Source: Flavobacteriia bacterium
GTDB taxonomy: Bacteria > Bacteroidota > Bacteroidia > Flavobacteriales > Flavobacteriaceae
Length of the DNA: 13,007 bases
Direction of reading: 5' to 3'
Assembly (NCBI GenBank): GCA_003973375.1
Contig: QNYL01000315.1
Location: forward strand, 1 to 13,007
Part shown: in pieces, positions 4,247 through 10,540 of the stretch
Position numbering within the stretch: position 1 is the stretch's first letter
Layout of the letters: every line of letters begins with the position of its first letter
Translations under genes and position numbers: made by a program
Notes under the pieces: generated by a model
What the model was told of the DNA's origin: nothing
Seen by the model: only the letters and a program-made list of their open reading frames with translations
Database searches by the model: none

Positions 4247-4506
4247 AGATTTTATTTTGTATAAAATTAGTGTTTTTGTTTGAAAAGATATTGAGGTTTA
4301 TAATGATATTCAAAAGATTATAAATTTAAATCGCTGTAATACTGTTTTACAATATGAAATAAGGGGTAACATACTTTATATAAACCTGTATTTTGATGTT
4401 AAAAATACTTAAAAAAAAATTACTACAGTTTAACTTTTTTTACTATATTTATAACTATATAGTTTACTGAACTTTAAAATATTATTCACTAAAAAATCAA
4501 TTGATC

Positions 4507-5190
4507 ATGAAAAAACTTATGGCGGAATTTATCGGAACCTTATGGTTGGTATTAGGCGGGTGTGGAAGTGCTGTTTTAGCAGCTGCTTTTCCTGATTTAG
4601 GCATCGGATTTGTGGGCGTTGCTATTGCTTTTGGATTAACCGTACTAACAATGGTCTATGCTGTAGGCCATATTTCCGGAGCGCATTTCAATCCGGCTGT
4701 GTCTGTAGGCTTATGGGTTGGAGGTCGTTTTGACAAAAAAGATTTATTTCCCTATATCATCGCTCAGGTACTGGGTGGTATTGCCGGGGCAGGAATTTTA
4801 TACGTTATCGCTACCGGAAAAGCAGGATTTGAGGTAGGAGGCTTTGCTTCCAATGGTTATGGCGAACATTCCCCCGGAGGATACAGCTTACTGGCCGGAC
4901 TGGTTACAGAGATTGTTATGACTTTTATGTTTCTGATTATTATTTTGGGCGCCACACATTCAAAGGCTCCAAAAGGATTTGCAGGGATTGCTATCGGCCT
5001 GGGCTTAACCCTTATACATTTAATCAGTATTCCGGTTACCAATACCTCCGTAAATCCGGCAAGAAGCACAAGCCAGGCAATTTTTGCAGGAGGCTGGGCG
5101 ATCGATCAACTGTGGATGTTTTGGGTAGCACCGATTATCGGAGCAATCCTCGCCGGAATCGTTTATAAAATAATGTCGCCAGAGGAATAA
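4507..5190 (+). CDS. aqpZ: Aquaporin Z-type water channel
   Basis: This is a 227-residue inner-membrane water channel of the MIP family, close to the usual AqpZ length (about 230). Both pore loops carry intact NPA boxes, at 62-64 ([10 protein letters not shown]) and 183-185 (NTSVNPARS). The aromatic/arginine filter positions match orthodox E. coli AqpZ: F42, H171, T180 and R186. This argues for water rather than glycerol transport. I prefer the ATG at 4507. An in-frame TTG two codons upstream at 4501 is possible, but [11 protein letters not shown] is the usual AqpZ beginning. The gene is transcribed alone, divergent from the helicase across an AT-rich spacer and convergent with the feoB permease gene, whose stop lies only 13 bp away. 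A weak -7-like box TATATTTA lies at 4444-4451, without a convincing -33 element. Confidence 0.96.
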
Positions 5191-5203: not shown

Positions 5204-6625
5204 TTATCCTGTAAAGATTCTCCAGATCTGAGCTACCAAAAAGGTTACAACAAAACCTAAGATCAAGGGTAACAAAGTAGCAATGCTCGTCCATTTTACA
5301 CTTTTTGTTTCTTTATAAATTGTGTAAATGGTCGTACTGCACGGATTATGTAACAAACTGAATAACATTAAATTAACAGCAGTAAGCAAGGTCCAGCCGC
5401 CGGCTCTGAGAATCTCTACGGTTTCATTGGCCGAATCAAGTTCAAACATTACTCCGGCTCCTTCTCCTGCAGCCACACCGGTTATCATTACCGTAAGCAT
5501 CAATATGGTAGGAATAACAATTTCATTAGCCGGAATGGCAACAATATAAGCCAGCAGAATTACTCCGTTCAGGCCGATTAAAAATCCCAATGGATTGAAC
5601 ATTTCAGTCAGCCAGCCTGCGATACTTTGTCCTCCCACATCAATATTTGAGATCAGCCAGATCGCAGCTCCTGCCGGTGCTGCAAAAATAACTGCACGCC
5701 AAAGTACGATCAAAGTACGGTCGACAATTGAGGTATAGATGGTTTTCCAGAATCTGGGCGGACGATAAGGCGGCAATTCAAGATTAAAAGTAGAAACCTC
5801 TCCTTTTAGAACGGTTTTTGACAATAGCCATGAACTAAAAAACATAAAAGCAATGCCCAGAACAGCAATACCAATTACCGCAGAAACAGCTACAACCCCC
5901 GAAAGATACTGAGGGACTACCGCTCCTAAAAAAATAGTGGCGATCAGAATCTGCGTAGGCCATCTGCCGTTACACAAAGAAAAATTGTTGGTAATGATCG
6001 CGATTAGTCTTTCTCTCGGACTGTCGATGATTCTTGTAGCCACTACTCCGGCAGCATTACATCCAAACCCCATACTCATAGTGAGTGCCTGTTTGCCGTG
6101 AGCCCCTGATTTTTTAAAAAGATAATCCAGATTAAAAGCCACTCTGGGTAGGTATCCAAAGTCTTCCAGCAAAGTAAACAACGGAAAGAAAATAGCCATC
6201 GGTGGCAGCATTACCGCAATTACCCAGGCCACAGCCATATAAACCCCATCGATTAGAAAACCACTCAGCCACCAGGGCATATTGATCTGAACTGCCATAT
6301 CCTTTAAAAAGGGACGGATCGTATTCAGAAACAGATCCGATAACAAAGAGGAAGGATAATTGGCACCGACAATTGTGATCCAAAGCACAATAGCCAGAAT
6401 AAAGAACATGATGGGGAAACCCCAGGTTTTACTGGTAACGATACGGTCAATTCTTGTATCGAGTCTCGATCTGCCTCCGGAATTTTCAGATCGTGTTACA
6501 TTACTGACAATCTCCGAGGCATCGGCATAAATCCCTTCGGTAAGTTTATCGTGAAAATCATCACCGATCTTCCATCGCAGATCTTCAGCCAGATCTAATA
6601 TTTTATCTATAGGTTCTTTTTCCAT
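5204..6625 (-). CDS. feoB: FeoB permease half (ferrous iron transporter membrane domain, split FeoB)
   Basis: This 473-residue polytopic protein corresponds to the membrane part of FeoB, the pore for Fe(II) uptake, without the GTPase. Gate/nucleoside-recognition signatures are visible: [18 protein letters not shown] at 147-164, [23 protein letters not shown] at about 185-207 and PANEIVIPT near 365-373. Cysteines C189 (GFGCN), C218 and C429 (HNPCST) sit in or near membrane segments where FeoB proteins often carry conserved cysteines. The first 60 residues are soluble and charged and hold no G motifs. The ATG at 6623-6625 lies 3 bp after the stop of the GTPase gene, so the two halves are almost certainly co-translated parts of one transporter. 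It is the last gene of the operon. I see no decayed linker between the halves, so I read this as a natural split rather than a recent frameshift. Confidence 0.93.
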
Positions 6626-6628
6626 ATT

Positions 6629-7393
6629 TTACACCAGCTCTCTTTTTTTTAATGCGTTGATAATGGTTTTATCCCCTTCCAGCAACCGGAAAGCGATCCA
6701 CCTGCTGTTGGGCAAACCCGGAAATTGCTTACGTAACTCAGAAGAAAGTTTTTTTACAGCATTCTTTATTTTCTCAGGCATATTTTTAATGCGATGCGGT
6801 TTACAAACAATTTCTCCTGAAGCCACCTCTGAAATGGTTTTTGTAAGTTCGGGGATACCTTTACGGAATCTTGCCGAAGTAGGAACCACGGGAATTCCCA
6901 GATCTCTGGCCAGTGCTCTTTCATCGATCTCGATCTTGTTTCGTTTGGCCTCATCCACTAAATTTAAACATAAAACCGCCTTATTGGTTATTTCAAGGAT
7001 CTGCAGGACAAGATTCAGATTTCTTTCCAGCCGGCTGGCATCTACCACGATTACCGTAACATCCGGTTTGCCGAAAAGTATAAAATTACGCGCAACTTCC
7101 TCATCCTCAGATGTTGATAATAAGGAATACGTGCCCGGAAGATCTACGAGCTTATACTTTTTCTTATCGTAGATAAAAGCCCCTTCTGCCCTGGTTACCG
7201 TTTTCCCCGGCCAGTTGCCTGTATGTTGCCTCAATCCGGTAAGGGTATTAAATACCGTACTTTTTCCCGTATTCGGATTTCCTGCCAGGGCCACTACATA
7301 ATCAGCATCACCGGTATCTACTCCCAGCCTTTTCACGTCATCGGGAATATACTGTGGACAGCCCTCGCATCCTGTATTGGTATTTTTACTCAT
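6629..7393 (-). CDS. FeoB GTPase half (stand-alone G domain of split FeoB)
   Basis: This 254-residue soluble protein is the regulatory GTPase of ferrous iron transport. G motifs are intact: G1 GNPNTGKS at 38-45, the G2 region NWPGKTVT with T66, G3 DLPG at 84-87, G4 NLVD at 144-147 and a G5-like PTSA at 171-174. A helical stretch at about 200-254 matches the position of the guanine-dissociation-inhibitor region of FeoB. It ends where the membrane domain would normally begin, and that domain is encoded by the next gene 3 bp downstream. Its ATG overlaps the stop of the upstream fusion gene by 4 bp (7390-7393), so translational coupling is likely. The N-terminal tail carries a C9-x-x-C12 pair (GCEGCP) ahead of the G domain, a possible metal or redox site that I cannot assign. 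Identity is firm; the role of the cysteines is inference. Confidence 0.93.
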
Positions 7394-8418
7394 ACTTTTT
7401 CTTTTTTTACAAGGATCTTTGATGCCTGGTCTTCTCTTAAAGCAATGGAAGTTCCTTTGACCAGATAAGCCTTTGTATTTCCCATCGGACTCTTAAGATC
7501 AACTTTGATCGGTGTTCCCTTTACAAAGCCCAGATCGAGTAACCGCCTTCTGCTTTCTCCCCGCATTTCTTTGGAAATAGAAACCACTCTGGCTCTTTCC
7601 TTTTCCTTTAACCGGGACAAGCGGAAATATCCGGGATCTTTAAAATCTTCATCTTTTATCACCGAAACTGTAATGTTCTCTGCTACGGCAGGAGATAAAG
7701 TAAAATATTCTCCTTCAGAATAGAAAACGATCCGGTTTTTATCATTTTCCTCAACTTTGATCAAAGAATCAATGGTGATATTTCTTTTGAGAATTTGCTC
7801 ATAAATATGATAAGGTTCATCCTCCAGGTGAATGATCCTGCCTTTTGTGCCTTTCGACAACCGTGATAAGGGAATTCCCTTAAATTCAGCTGTTTTCCCT
7901 TTCGGTGAAGGGATCGGATCTCCATGTGGATCATAGATCGGATTCCCCAGTTTTTCAGCCAGTTTTTCTGTTTCTTCCTTACTTAAAAGATGTTCCATCT
8001 TCTCAGCCTGCTTATGCCATTCTCTTTGATCATAGCCCGTTCTCTCTGCCAGATATTTTTCCCACAAACGGTGTGTTCTGATAATACTTAAGGCATACTC
8101 TTTCCCGCTTTTGGTCAGGATCAGCCTGTCCCTTTCTATATGCAACAGATCTTTTGCAGCCATTCTGCTCAAGATATAAACCAGTTTACCTTCGTTTACT
8201 TTTAGTGCATCTCTTAGAATGTGTATATCAGCTGTTTTACCTGAATCCTCCAAATGATACATTTGTTTTAAAATATCTTCGGTAAGGGTCTTGCCGCCGC
8301 TTTTTGAAGTCTTTTTCCATTTCCAAAGCCATCCTTTCTCCGGCCTGAAGATCAAAAACAGAAGAAACGAAACGATTCCGAAGATCGCTAAAGCTGTTAC
8401 AGGATTATAGTTCATCAT
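7390..8418 (-). CDS. Membrane-anchored DtxR-like regulator fused to a C-terminal FeoA domain
   Basis: This 342-residue protein has four visible parts. A single hydrophobic helix (about 8-24) is followed by a basic stretch ([12 protein letters not shown]), predicting an N-out, C-in anchor. A winged-helix region (about 45-110) comes next. Then comes a DtxR metal-binding/dimerisation domain (about 111-172) with H116, E120, H135, E139, E142 and H143, ending in the family signature YDPHGDPIP at 162-170. The C-terminal half holds two small beta-barrel-type regions: a diverged SH3/FeoA-like one (about 180-255) and a clear FeoA domain (about 267-337, [12 protein letters not shown]). FeoA normally is a separate small protein that assists FeoB. 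Here no separate feoA is seen and the domain is fused to a metal sensor. The gene overlaps the upstream regulator by 14 bp and the GTPase gene by 4 bp. The start could be either of two consecutive ATGs (8416-8418 or 8413-8415). The recognition helix ([11 protein letters not shown]) is poorly conserved, so DNA binding is uncertain. Confidence 0.85.
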
Positions 8419-9073
8419 TCATTCTTTTGATTAACAGGTTTTTTGCTACCTGCTCACTGATATAAAAGGTTTCCCAGTTTGTTTTAATCAAAACCGACTG
8501 ATCAAATTTTTCTATATCCACTACTTCAATCTGGTCATCGATAACCATATTCTTTCTGTCGAGATATTTTAAAAATACATTCGAAGAATCCTTTAATCCC
8601 TTCAAAATTCCTCTTTCTCCAATTTCCATATTTTTAAGAGAAATAAGTTCCTCCCCGGCAAAATTTCCATCCTTATCAGGAATAGGATCCCCATGTGGGT
8701 CATATTTAGGAAGACCGAGAAAATAATCGAGTTTATCTATGAGTGAATCTGATTTAACATGCTCCAGTTGCTCGGCAATTTCATGTACCTCATCCCATTT
8801 ATAGTGAAGCTTATCCACCAGAAAAAATTCCCAGAGCCGGTGCTTTCTTAAAACCTTTAAAGCAATACTTCTTCCTGTTTCAGTAAGTTTTACCCCCTGA
8901 TAAGGTTTATAGCTCAACAAGTCTTTTGCCGATAATTTTTTGATCATATCAGTAACAGAGGAGGCTTTGGTAGATAATTTTTCTGCTATCAGATTAGTAT
9001 TTACAGGCGCTTCCTCAGCCTTTTGCAAAGTAAAGATTACCTTTAAATAATTCTCTTCTGACTGTGAATACAT
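8405..9073 (-). CDS. DtxR/MntR-family metal-dependent transcriptional regulator
   Basis: This 222-residue protein has the full DtxR layout. A winged helix spans about 1-72, with a canonical recognition helix KASSVTDMIKKLSAKDLL (37-53). The dimerisation/metal domain spans about 73-135. A C-terminal SH3/FeoA-like domain spans about 143-217. Putative ligands are H78, E82 and H97 for one site and E101, E104 and H105 for the other. The position of DtxR Met10 / MntR Asp8 is N8. Glutamate at the DtxR Cys102 position is MntR-like, so Mn(II) as well as Fe(II) is possible from sequence alone. It heads the feo operon and overlaps the membrane-anchored paralogue by 14 bp. A candidate operator, TTTAG-N6-CTAAA, lies just upstream at 9103-9118, suggesting repression of its own operon when metal is plentiful. 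Family call strong; metal specificity open. Confidence 0.92.
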   Translation of the reverse strand: MYSQSEENYLKVIFTLQKAEEAPVNTNLIAEKLSTKASSVTDMIKKLSAKDLLSYKPYQGVKLTETGRSIALKVLRKHRLWEFFLVDKLHYKWDEVHEIAEQLEHVKSDSLIDKLDYFLGLPKYDPHGDPIPDKDGNFAGEELISLKNMEIGERGILKGLKDSSNVFLKYLDRKNMVIDDQIEVVDIEKFDQSVLIKTNWETFYISEQVAKNLLIKRMNDEL

Positions 9074-9086
9074 TTTATATTTTTTG

Positions 9087-9121
9087 TAAATATAAAATAT
9101 TTTTTAGTCTTATCTAAATTT
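9087..9121 (-). promoter_or_regulatory. Candidate promoter of the feo operon
   Basis: On the minus strand TATATTTA (9087-9094) matches the Bacteroidota -7 consensus TAnnTTTG at seven of eight positions and lies 13 bp before the start codon of the regulator gene. A TTTA at 9115-9118, about 20 bp further upstream, could serve as a -33 TTTG-like element. The region is very AT-rich, so chance matches are easy; the link to an overlapping operator raises the probability. Confidence 0.35.
9103..9118. promoter_or_regulatory. Candidate DtxR/MntR-type operator
   Basis: The 16-bp sequence TTTAGTCTTATCTAAA has perfect 5-bp arms (TTTAG/CTAAA) separated by 6 bp. This is the same arm and spacing layout as MntR-type boxes of the form TTTAGGTTAGCCTAAA. 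It lies between the proposed -33 and -7 elements of the feo operon, where a bound repressor would block transcription. The inner bases do not match the consensus well, so this is a candidate only. Confidence 0.4.
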
Positions 9122-9478: not shown

Positions 9479-10540
9479 TCAATCTTTTACTCTTTTCCAT
9501 TTCATTGTGGAGATCATCCATTTAGGTAACGATTTTGAAGGATCTCTTTTTCTAAGATCGATATACCAGCCCAGCTTTTTTATAATGGGCACTTTATGGG
9601 TTTCCACAAATTCTATAGGCGTGCCATCGGGATCGGAAATATAAGCAAATTGTCCTGCTGCTTCTCCCATATCAAAAGAATCGGCACTATCCACCGTAAA
9701 CGGAAATCCTTTTTGTTTTACCTCTTCCCGTAAGGCATCCATTCCAATGGTATCAAAACAAATATGTATGAATCCGGGGTCTCCCCAGATACGATCACCG
9801 TAGATCTTTTTCCCTTTTTTACCGATCAACTGAACCAGTTCTATCTGTGAGGGCCCAAACAAAGGTGCAAATCCACCACTTCTATTTTCCGAGGGTTTTA
9901 ACAACATCCTTCTTACTTTCTGATCACCTCCGGGTAAACTTTTCAGATCGTCAAAAACACGGGTATCATCATAAATAACCTCATCATAACCCAAAATTTC
10001 CTGATATACTTTTATAGACTCTTCAATATCACTTACTCCGATGATCGCCCCATAGATACCCCCTGTAACAGAATCGGTTTTTTTAAATAGGTAATCATTT
10101 TCAACCACCTGAAAAATATTGTTATAGGGATCTCTGACAAAATAATGCAGAGTACCATCCGGCGATCTTCTCAATTCCCCCAGCAGGTCCAGCCCGTCAG
10201 CTTTCATCTTTGAAAAGGCTTTTTCCACATCTGCACTTTTTACCTTGGCAACAAATATTCCGAGATCTCCCAACTGCAGCTTAAAACCCGGATGTTCAGG
10301 CACTTTACCGGTATGCTGCCAGATCTCAAAACCTCCTCCGGCCTGCATATTCATAGCGAGAACAGCATGACGGGAGCGTTTTTCCCCTTCTGTGTAATGC
10401 AACATCAATTCGGCAACAGCTGCTTCTTCAAAAACACCAATATCCATCCCAAAATGCCGGCGATACCATTTCCATGCCTGATGTACATCATCCACACCGA
10501 TTCCGATTTGCTGTATTCCTGTGATCTTTTTTGGTTTCAT
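9479..10540 (-). CDS. Double-VOC protein (glyoxalase/bleomycin resistance/dioxygenase fold)
   Basis: This 353-residue protein has two vicinal-oxygen-chelate modules, at about 5-150 and 160-315, then a basic tail with a WYIDLRKRDPSKSLPKW stretch. Each module ends with the typical DP..-G/N strand (DPYNNIFQVVE at 137-147, DPDGTPIEFVE at 303-313). Metal-ligand candidates are seen only in module 2: E234 (SQIELVQ), H259 (GFIHICF) and E310. Equivalent histidines are missing from module 1 (Q144 replaces the usual Glu), so module 1 may be structural. The layout resembles type I extradiol dioxygenases or 4-hydroxyphenylpyruvate dioxygenase, but the signature sequences and C-terminus do not let me call either. 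The substrate is unknown. The start is the ATG at 10538-10540. The gene is isolated by gene-free spacers of about 400 bp downstream and 500 bp upstream. Confidence 0.85.
   Translation of the reverse strand: MKPKKITGIQQIGIGVDDVHQAWKWYRRHFGMDIGVFEEAAVAELMLHYTEGEKRSRHAVLAMNMQAGGGFEIWQHTGKVPEHPGFKLQLGDLGIFVAKVKSADVEKAFSKMKADGLDLLGELRRSPDGTLHYFVRDPYNNIFQVVENDYLFKKTDSVTGGIYGAIIGVSDIEESIKVYQEILGYDEVIYDDTRVFDDLKSLPGGDQKVRRMLLKPSENRSGGFAPLFGPSQIELVQLIGKKGKKIYGDRIWGDPGFIHICFDTIGMDALREEVKQKGFPFTVDSADSFDMGEAAGQFAYISDPDGTPIEFVETHKVPIIKKLGWYIDLRKRDPSKSLPKWMISTMKWKRVKD

Follow-up and report, generated by a model that had tools for sequence, protein, structure and literature searches.

We analysed a 13,007-nucleotide stretch of DNA from a Flavobacteriia bacterium (contig QNYL01000315.1), here called the window, which holds an operon of four genes in the negative strand. 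These are dtxR (8405..9073), encoding a soluble three-domain regulator of 222 aa; the complete gene of a sensor-FeoA protein of 342 aa (7390..8418), hereafter the tethered protein, whose start is overlapped by the 3' end of dtxR; feoB-N (6629..7393), encoding FeoB's G-protein portion (254 aa, carrying a CxxC at the N-terminus); and feoB-C (5204..6625), encoding the membrane (Gate) part (473 aa). A DtxR/MntR-like palindrome, TTTAGATAAGACTAAA, was located in the same strand at 9103..9118, i.e., at -45 to -30 relative to the dtxR start. An assembly error or a pseudogene as the cause of the split feoB was ruled out, because the same split was found again across relatives. Of the 128 proteins of tethered-protein operons that are FeoB-N or whole FeoB, 123 carry a CxxC N-terminal to the G1 motif, which may serve as a further site for metal binding or redox chemistry. 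Beside the operon, the aquaporin Z gene (4501-5190, positive strand) ends convergently with feoB-C, and the region 9479-10540 (negative strand) encodes 353 aa with glyoxalase-like matches in each half, all 15 NCBIfam matches listed for it being under their cut-offs. The genome of the window (76% complete) presented two PF02742 proteins, both within this operon. Another contig (C15) carries a feoA of the classical kind (75 aa) together with the beginning of a classical feoB, truncated where the stretch read ends, so that two Feo systems coexist in this genome.

Domain organization and metal ligands of the tethered protein

Pfam searches and a structure model revealed the following organization of the tethered protein, all coordinates being in the negative strand: a predicted transmembrane (TM) helix at residues 6-23 (8350..8403), assigned from the model and the charge distribution; a linker at residues 24-46 (8281..8349) with an F-x-P-x-[KR]-G motif; a degenerate winged helix at residues 47-101 (8116..8280), with the ligand-type residue D48 on its first helix; an intact DtxR metal-binding and dimerisation domain at residues 102-172 (7903..8115), with H116, E120, H135, E139, E142 and H143; a first barrel, SH3-like or FeoA-like, at residues 178-255 (7654..7887), with the motif H197-x-E-D-E; and, as second barrel, a true FeoA domain at residues 264-340 (7399..7629; pI ~10.5). 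The metal domain matched PF02742 with an E value of 1.4e-25 and the FeoA domain matched PF04023 with 89 bits (cut-off 23), whereas PF01325 was absent from the Pfam matches of this protein at E values up to 1. PF00950 (ABC-3 permease) gave no match either, and the model contained a single membrane helix. An earlier note on this DNA, made from the sequence alone, had anticipated most of this architecture: the TM helix it claimed at 8-24 and the FeoA domain it claimed at 267-337 are both there, with slightly different limits, and the winged helix and the diverged barrel that it described are present as folds in the model.

The charge distribution puts the predicted sensor part in the cytosol. Comparison of the structure model with DtxR chains indicated that the winged-helix fold is intact; in the model, a single continuous helix runs from residue 30 of the linker through the first helical element of this fold. 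The modelled protein aligns with DtxR chains from residue 40-41, and its first helix begins about ten residues earlier, at residue 30. The six ligand residues of the metal domain, also recognized in the earlier note, were conserved among the 128 distinct tethered-type proteins compared (see below): H116, E120, H135, E142 and H143 were present in all of them, and position 139 was E in 112, D in 13, C in two and N in one. D48 was found in 120 of the 128, and the ligand-type residues of the first barrel were H197 in 127, E199 in 124, D200 in 127 and E201 in 123. The soluble DtxR neighbours mostly showed different residues at positions 197, 199 and 201. D48 is no general mark, since Asn occupies this position in most soluble neighbours, and the permease-fused modules described below have either Asn or His there.

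Occurrence and FeoB partner

The earlier note had treated the window protein as a singular case, but the architecture proved widespread. The best 80 named loci, drawn from 592 candidates of which 591 were confirmed, are spread over 11 named phyla, candidate division KSB1 and a single bacterium without a label; the phylum labels were taken from record titles, mostly of metagenome-assembled genomes (MAGs), and four of the phyla are represented by one MAG each. A TM segment was present in 78 of these 80 loci, a rate biased upward because the query contained the TM. In a survey of 392 Bacteroidota genomes with the same TM-containing query (E 1e-40), the tethered protein was found in 44, in every case with the TM. 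Among the matches listed, all 120 homologue clusters, that of the window included, presented a hydrophobic N-terminus.

The best 80 named loci, further relatives, the phylum survey and one Prevotella record together gave 132 loci with 128 distinct proteins. An N-terminal hydrophobic TM segment was detected in 129 of the 132; the three below the threshold were L013, of the soluble Prevotella type, L037, borderline at 1.47, and L092 (0.82), whose start may be wrong. FeoB-N or a whole FeoB lies directly downstream in 130 loci. The earlier note had called for a survey of this architecture beside a split feoB, and both parts of a split FeoB were seen in 114 of the 132 loci and a whole FeoB in 11. 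In 104 of the 132 loci the next gene begins within -16 to 15 bases of the end of the tethered gene. A soluble dtxR precedes the tethered gene in at least 91 loci, a lower bound because some loci were short and the dtxR of L023 lies beyond the 400-base limit used upstream.

A search with feoB-C in the 392 genomes separated two groups. Group 1 (at least 60% identical) comprised 50 genomes, 49 with a full-length sequence and one cut at a contig end; in 46 of the 49, FeoB-C is encoded by a frame of its own (472-534 aa), and in three FeoB is intact. The other matches (E 1e-30) were at most 35% identical and belonged to open frames of 555-907 aa, i.e., classical FeoB. A group-1 FeoB is present in every one of the 44 surveyed genomes that have a tethered protein. 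Six genomes have a group-1 FeoB without the tethered protein: in one the locus lies at a contig edge, and in five a stand-alone FeoA occupies the slot of the tethered protein, with 77-82 aa in four and 122 aa, counted from the first possible start, in L185. Pfam confirmed FeoA in the four stand-alone proteins checked. Because its slot is taken by a stand-alone FeoA where it is missing, the tethered protein is, as judged from these comparisons, a FeoA that belongs to one particular type of FeoB and carries a sensor in addition. In agreement with the earlier note, which had found no separate feoA, a profile of the FeoA domain of the tethered protein detected no other small feoA inside the tethered-protein operons. 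A classical feoA some kilobases off in the opposite strand was observed in seven of 127 tethered-protein loci (L016, L018, L020, L025, L026, L030 and L033); these loci are of the Flavobacteriaceae type, and a whole feoB accompanies the classical feoA.

DNA-reading surface, operator sites and relatives

To compare conservation column by column, we aligned the proteins of 87 operons that encode both a tethered protein and a soluble DtxR. The recognition helix (74-88) had 1.64 bits in the tethered proteins versus 3.01 in the soluble ones (difference -1.31, bootstrap 95% -1.43 to -1.18), and the wing (89-104) 1.88 versus 2.45. The metal domain (105-172, 68 columns) presented 3.10 versus 3.01 bits (column-wise Wilcoxon p 0.44), with a slight excess for the tethered protein in the operon bootstrap (+0.08; 0.04 to 0.12), and the first helix (46-58), which holds D48, was if anything better conserved in the tethered proteins (3.05 versus 2.72). 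The low values of the recognition helix are not due to misalignment, because near-invariant leucines flank it and the spacing 72-91 was fixed in 87 of 87 tethered proteins. The mean net charge of residues 74-90 was -0.36 in the tethered proteins and +1.09 in the soluble DtxRs. PF01325 matched 20 of 88 tethered proteins at E 0.01 (23 homologue clusters plus 65 of the best 80 named loci) and 87 of 87 soluble neighbours, the two sets overlapping without being drawn from identical operons. The DNA-reading surface of the tethered protein thus seems, from these alignments, to be relaxed, with the metal sites kept; the relaxed recognition helix could also reflect a changed rather than a lost specificity.

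Tethered proteins without an adjacent dtxR had a similarly degenerate winged helix. The two tethered sets had median winged-helix scores of 13.4 and 17.2 bits, compared with 95.1 bits in held-out soluble DtxRs; in the same comparison the recognition helix had 2.04 and 1.83 bits in the tethered proteins and 3.07 in the held-out DtxRs. In 15 of the 41 loci without an adjacent dtxR the genome was searched for a distant PF01325 protein, and all 15 genomes encoded one elsewhere, with a length usual for DtxR (217-285 aa). The idea that the tethered-only operons are those where the tethered protein keeps a DNA job was not supported, the winged helix being similarly degenerate there and a PF01325 protein being present elsewhere in 15 of 15 genomes.

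The consensus TTTAGRTATAYCTAAA scored at least 13 of 16 in 43 of 85 upstream regions, a count that is partly circular because the consensus was set after some of these regions had been viewed; the controls gave 2.7% of shuffles and none of 87 regions inside the dtxR upstream of the tethered gene. Eight of 40 operons without dtxR presented an operator-like site upstream of the tethered gene, which could be a target of the tethered protein or of an unlinked DtxR. A scan of the genome of the window yielded eight matches (one exact, upstream of dtxR, and seven with one mismatch), and a control pattern also yielded eight; because the two numbers are equal, we claim no regulon.

Two genomes of the same order presented an ABC metal operon in which genes for a binding protein, an ATPase and a permease come after a soluble dtxR; the permease has a DtxR module at its C-terminus, and Pfam recognized ABC-3 and Fe_dep_repr_C in it. 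A permease search (E 1e-50) gave matches in 50 of 296 genomes. Among the 33 permeases that were read, the metal-domain motif was present in 21 and absent from 12, L170-L175 being among the latter. The six of these 12 whose C-termini were inspected finish with a winged-helix-like stretch only. The permease-fused modules (e.g., L149 and L151) share several characters with the tethered protein: the TM-linker with a P-x-x-G motif 21 residues ahead of the module, a relaxed winged helix, the residues H116, E120, H135, E142 and H143, kept in 21 of 21, and a soluble dtxR in the operon. They differ in that the permease polypeptide includes the module, which has neither the SH3 barrel nor the FeoA domain and carries Asn or His at position 48. 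A profile of 120 tethered proteins, restricted to TM and linker up to the residue before E47, was aligned by hhalign with 15 permeases; it aligned to their last TM and linker (Prob 93.3, E 2.8e-7), the next-best alignment being to another TM (Prob 1.2). The Pro and Gly of the motif, 21 and 18 residues ahead of the module, were present in 99 of 120 tethered proteins and 13 of 15 permeases, counts that leave out the seven of 127 and six of 21 sequences that could not be anchored. When the 50 residues ahead of the module were searched, the motif occurred at this place alone in 91 of 91 tethered proteins and 13 of 13 permeases. When ten sequences per group were compared, the values for the recognition helix were 2.36 bits in the tethered proteins, 2.36 in the permeases, 2.60 in soluble twin-FeoA proteins and 3.27 in DtxRs, and those for the metal domain 3.36, 3.29, 3.81 and 3.34 bits, respectively.

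An unrooted tree could not place the tethered proteins relative to the permeases, and outgroup DtxRs were added. In the resulting tree of winged helix plus metal domain (54 rows), the tethered, permease-fused and soluble twin-FeoA proteins lie on one side and the soluble DtxRs on the other, with support 91/84, a value that was not starred. The same split was obtained with FastTree (0.805), with the metal domain alone (0.764) and, apart from one stray sequence, with only the winged helix (0.813). A topology grouping the tethered and twin-FeoA proteins with the neighbouring soluble DtxRs, to the exclusion of the permeases, was rejected with p-AU 0.028, in a test on 54 of 147 rows, outgroup DtxRs included, that was run after earlier trees had been viewed, contrary to the advice for this test. 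Taken as moderate evidence, these sequence comparisons argue for a single tethered ancestor of the tethered FeoA sensor and the permease-fused module. The odds seem to us about even that both descend from one transporter-tethered DtxR sensor and exemplify a widely used kind of metal gate that acts after translation on FeoB and ABC importers; the fold of a repressor would here have become a switch for transporters, the soluble DtxR paralogue having kept the promoter job.

Twin-FeoA DtxR proteins are already known. PgMntR (PG1044) of Porphyromonas gingivalis has the domain order of the tethered protein, a wHTH, a DtxR metal domain and two FeoA domains, and its gene sits in the operon of the FeoB homologue FB2, a Mn transporter (PMC4805248). 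Ten of the ligand positions given in that paper (H85, E89, H104, E111, H112, D132, H134, H166, D169 and E170) map onto the window protein with a constant offset of 31. According to the same source, PgMntR differs from the window protein in being soluble and in having Cys108, in metal site 1, in place of Glu139; it binds the promoter of its own operon in vitro even without metal, loses this binding without its last FeoA domain, has an overall Kd for Mn of 2.0e-11 M and, with 41 full-length homologues, forms what its authors termed a previously undescribed subfamily. A word search of the main text of PMC4805248 did not return "transmembrane". Relatives from Prevotella, Tannerella and Porphyromonadaceae have the same domain order without a TM and form a group of their own adjoining the tethered ones; in the first tree this soluble Prevotella-type clade tentatively came out as sister to the tethered proteins (branch support 0.665), and some of its N-termini looked amphipathic, with mixed hydrophobic moments. 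With a protein of this type as query (E 1e-40) only four of 296 genomes of the class of the window gave matches, so it is uncommon there. PgMntR was not recognized among the relatives listed by its published ligand positions; its domain order and a relative named Porphyromonadaceae suggest that it is kin to the soluble Prevotella-type clade, and the FeoB of the window is presumably an orthologue of FB2.

Other known systems resemble the tethered protein in part. DtxR and MntR repressors (5zr6, DR2539, IdeR) have the three-domain fold and the metal domain in common with it and, unlike it, are soluble readers of DNA. The norm of the FeoA family is a small stand-alone cytosolic protein, in contrast to 342 aa with a TM and a DtxR module. 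In the FeoA-FeoB fusion of Bacteroides fragilis, FeoA is physically tied to the transporter and acts on its G-domain, as PMC8980893 describes it without a metal sensor; GTP hydrolysis is slowed by FeoA, which touches the G-domain when this is in the GTP-like state, and the signal that removes it at iron sufficiency was left open by the authors, who mention an unknown downstream signal that might displace it. The FeoAB survey in that paper took out FeoA-DtxR fusions by hand. A search of titles and abstract openings, in which subscription journals were thinly covered, retrieved no description of an anchored DtxR-FeoA protein or of the link with permeases. The anchored form, with its proposed and testable DNA-independent function, is the new part.

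Proposed function and alternatives

From its sequence and modelled fold, the tethered protein is probably a membrane-anchored metal sensor that acts through its FeoA domain on FeoB, while the adjacent soluble DtxR would take the slower task, repression of the operon through the palindrome upstream of it. In the cytosol, directly beneath the membrane, the tethered protein would form a dimer. Once there is enough Mn(II) or Fe(II) in the cytosol, metal would bind between the first helix (D48) and the metal domain; because the D48 helix continues towards the membrane, the bound metal would lock the position of the metal domain with respect to the anchor and thereby move FeoA. The metal-bound module would stiffen, FeoA would shift relative to the FeoB G-domain and uptake would stop, a post-translational feedback inhibition in which the tethered protein may supply the signal left open for the removal of FeoA in the B. 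fragilis fusion. That metal switches uptake off, and not on, is a guess, and so is a slight preference for Mn over Fe. We lean to Mn because D48 and E139 correspond to the MntR pair Asp8 and Glu99 in the alignment of PMC4805248 and because PgMntR belongs to a Mn-transporting FeoB; a pure Mn reading is weakened by the 1.6- to 3.3-fold rise of P. gingivalis PG1042-44 under iron depletion reported in PMC10434189.

An unlikely alternative, although one kept alive by the in vitro DNA binding of PgMntR and its need for the last FeoA domain (PMC4805248), is that the tethered protein is a membrane-tethered transcription factor, whose winged helix would bind the operator in a metal-dependent manner while the anchor holds the operon near the membrane. 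The winged-helix fold, intact in the model, the 20 of 88 matches to PF01325 and the operator-like sites in eight of 40 tethered-only operons would fit such a protein, but its recognition helix and wing are poorly conserved and on average not basic, whereas the soluble DtxRs of the same operons are conserved there, and the operons without dtxR have a PF01325 protein elsewhere in all 15 genomes tested. It also counts against this alternative that the modelled first helix begins at residue 30, about ten residues ahead of the DtxR-aligned part, in a place where the N-terminus of DtxR lies close to DNA. The earlier note had proposed either gating of FeoB or tethering of the operon DNA: a membrane sensor acting on FeoB is now the best supported of the two, by the kept metal sites, the relaxed DNA surface and the FeoA slot, and the same data disfavour DNA tethering.

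It is also rather improbable that the protein is mainly a scaffold or stabiliser, its anchor and FeoA domain keeping FeoB-N at the membrane beside FeoB-C and the metal being structural. The frequency of split FeoB downstream (114 of 132 loci) and the close gene spacing (104 of 132) are consistent with this role. FeoC is a winged-helix protein. It binds the FeoB G-domain and shields FeoB from proteolysis (PMC10710835). Against a scaffold, four of the five genomes mentioned above (L183-L186) combine a split FeoB with a stand-alone FeoA, and the tethered protein occurs with an intact FeoB in 10 loci, which weakens the split as the cause of the tether; since each occurs without the other, neither requires the other. 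A full DtxR-type ligand set would moreover be needless for a structural role. Least probable, and by a wide distance, is a metallochaperone at the pore exit that picks up the metal released by FeoB and delivers it to clients in the cytosol: the tether would put the sites at the membrane and, by analogy with PgMntR (PMC4805248), they may be of high affinity, but the Kd reported there for Mn is tight for a transfer site, and the four genes of the operon include no client gene.

If the tethered protein is a sensor that gates FeoB, uptake would be controlled by one sensor fold at two levels, the promoter and the pump. A FeoA that carries its own membrane metal sensor makes the question of which signal tells FeoB of sufficiency testable by point mutants in one protein. 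The DtxR family would then gain a second, DNA-independent mode of action, one that recurs on an unrelated importer.
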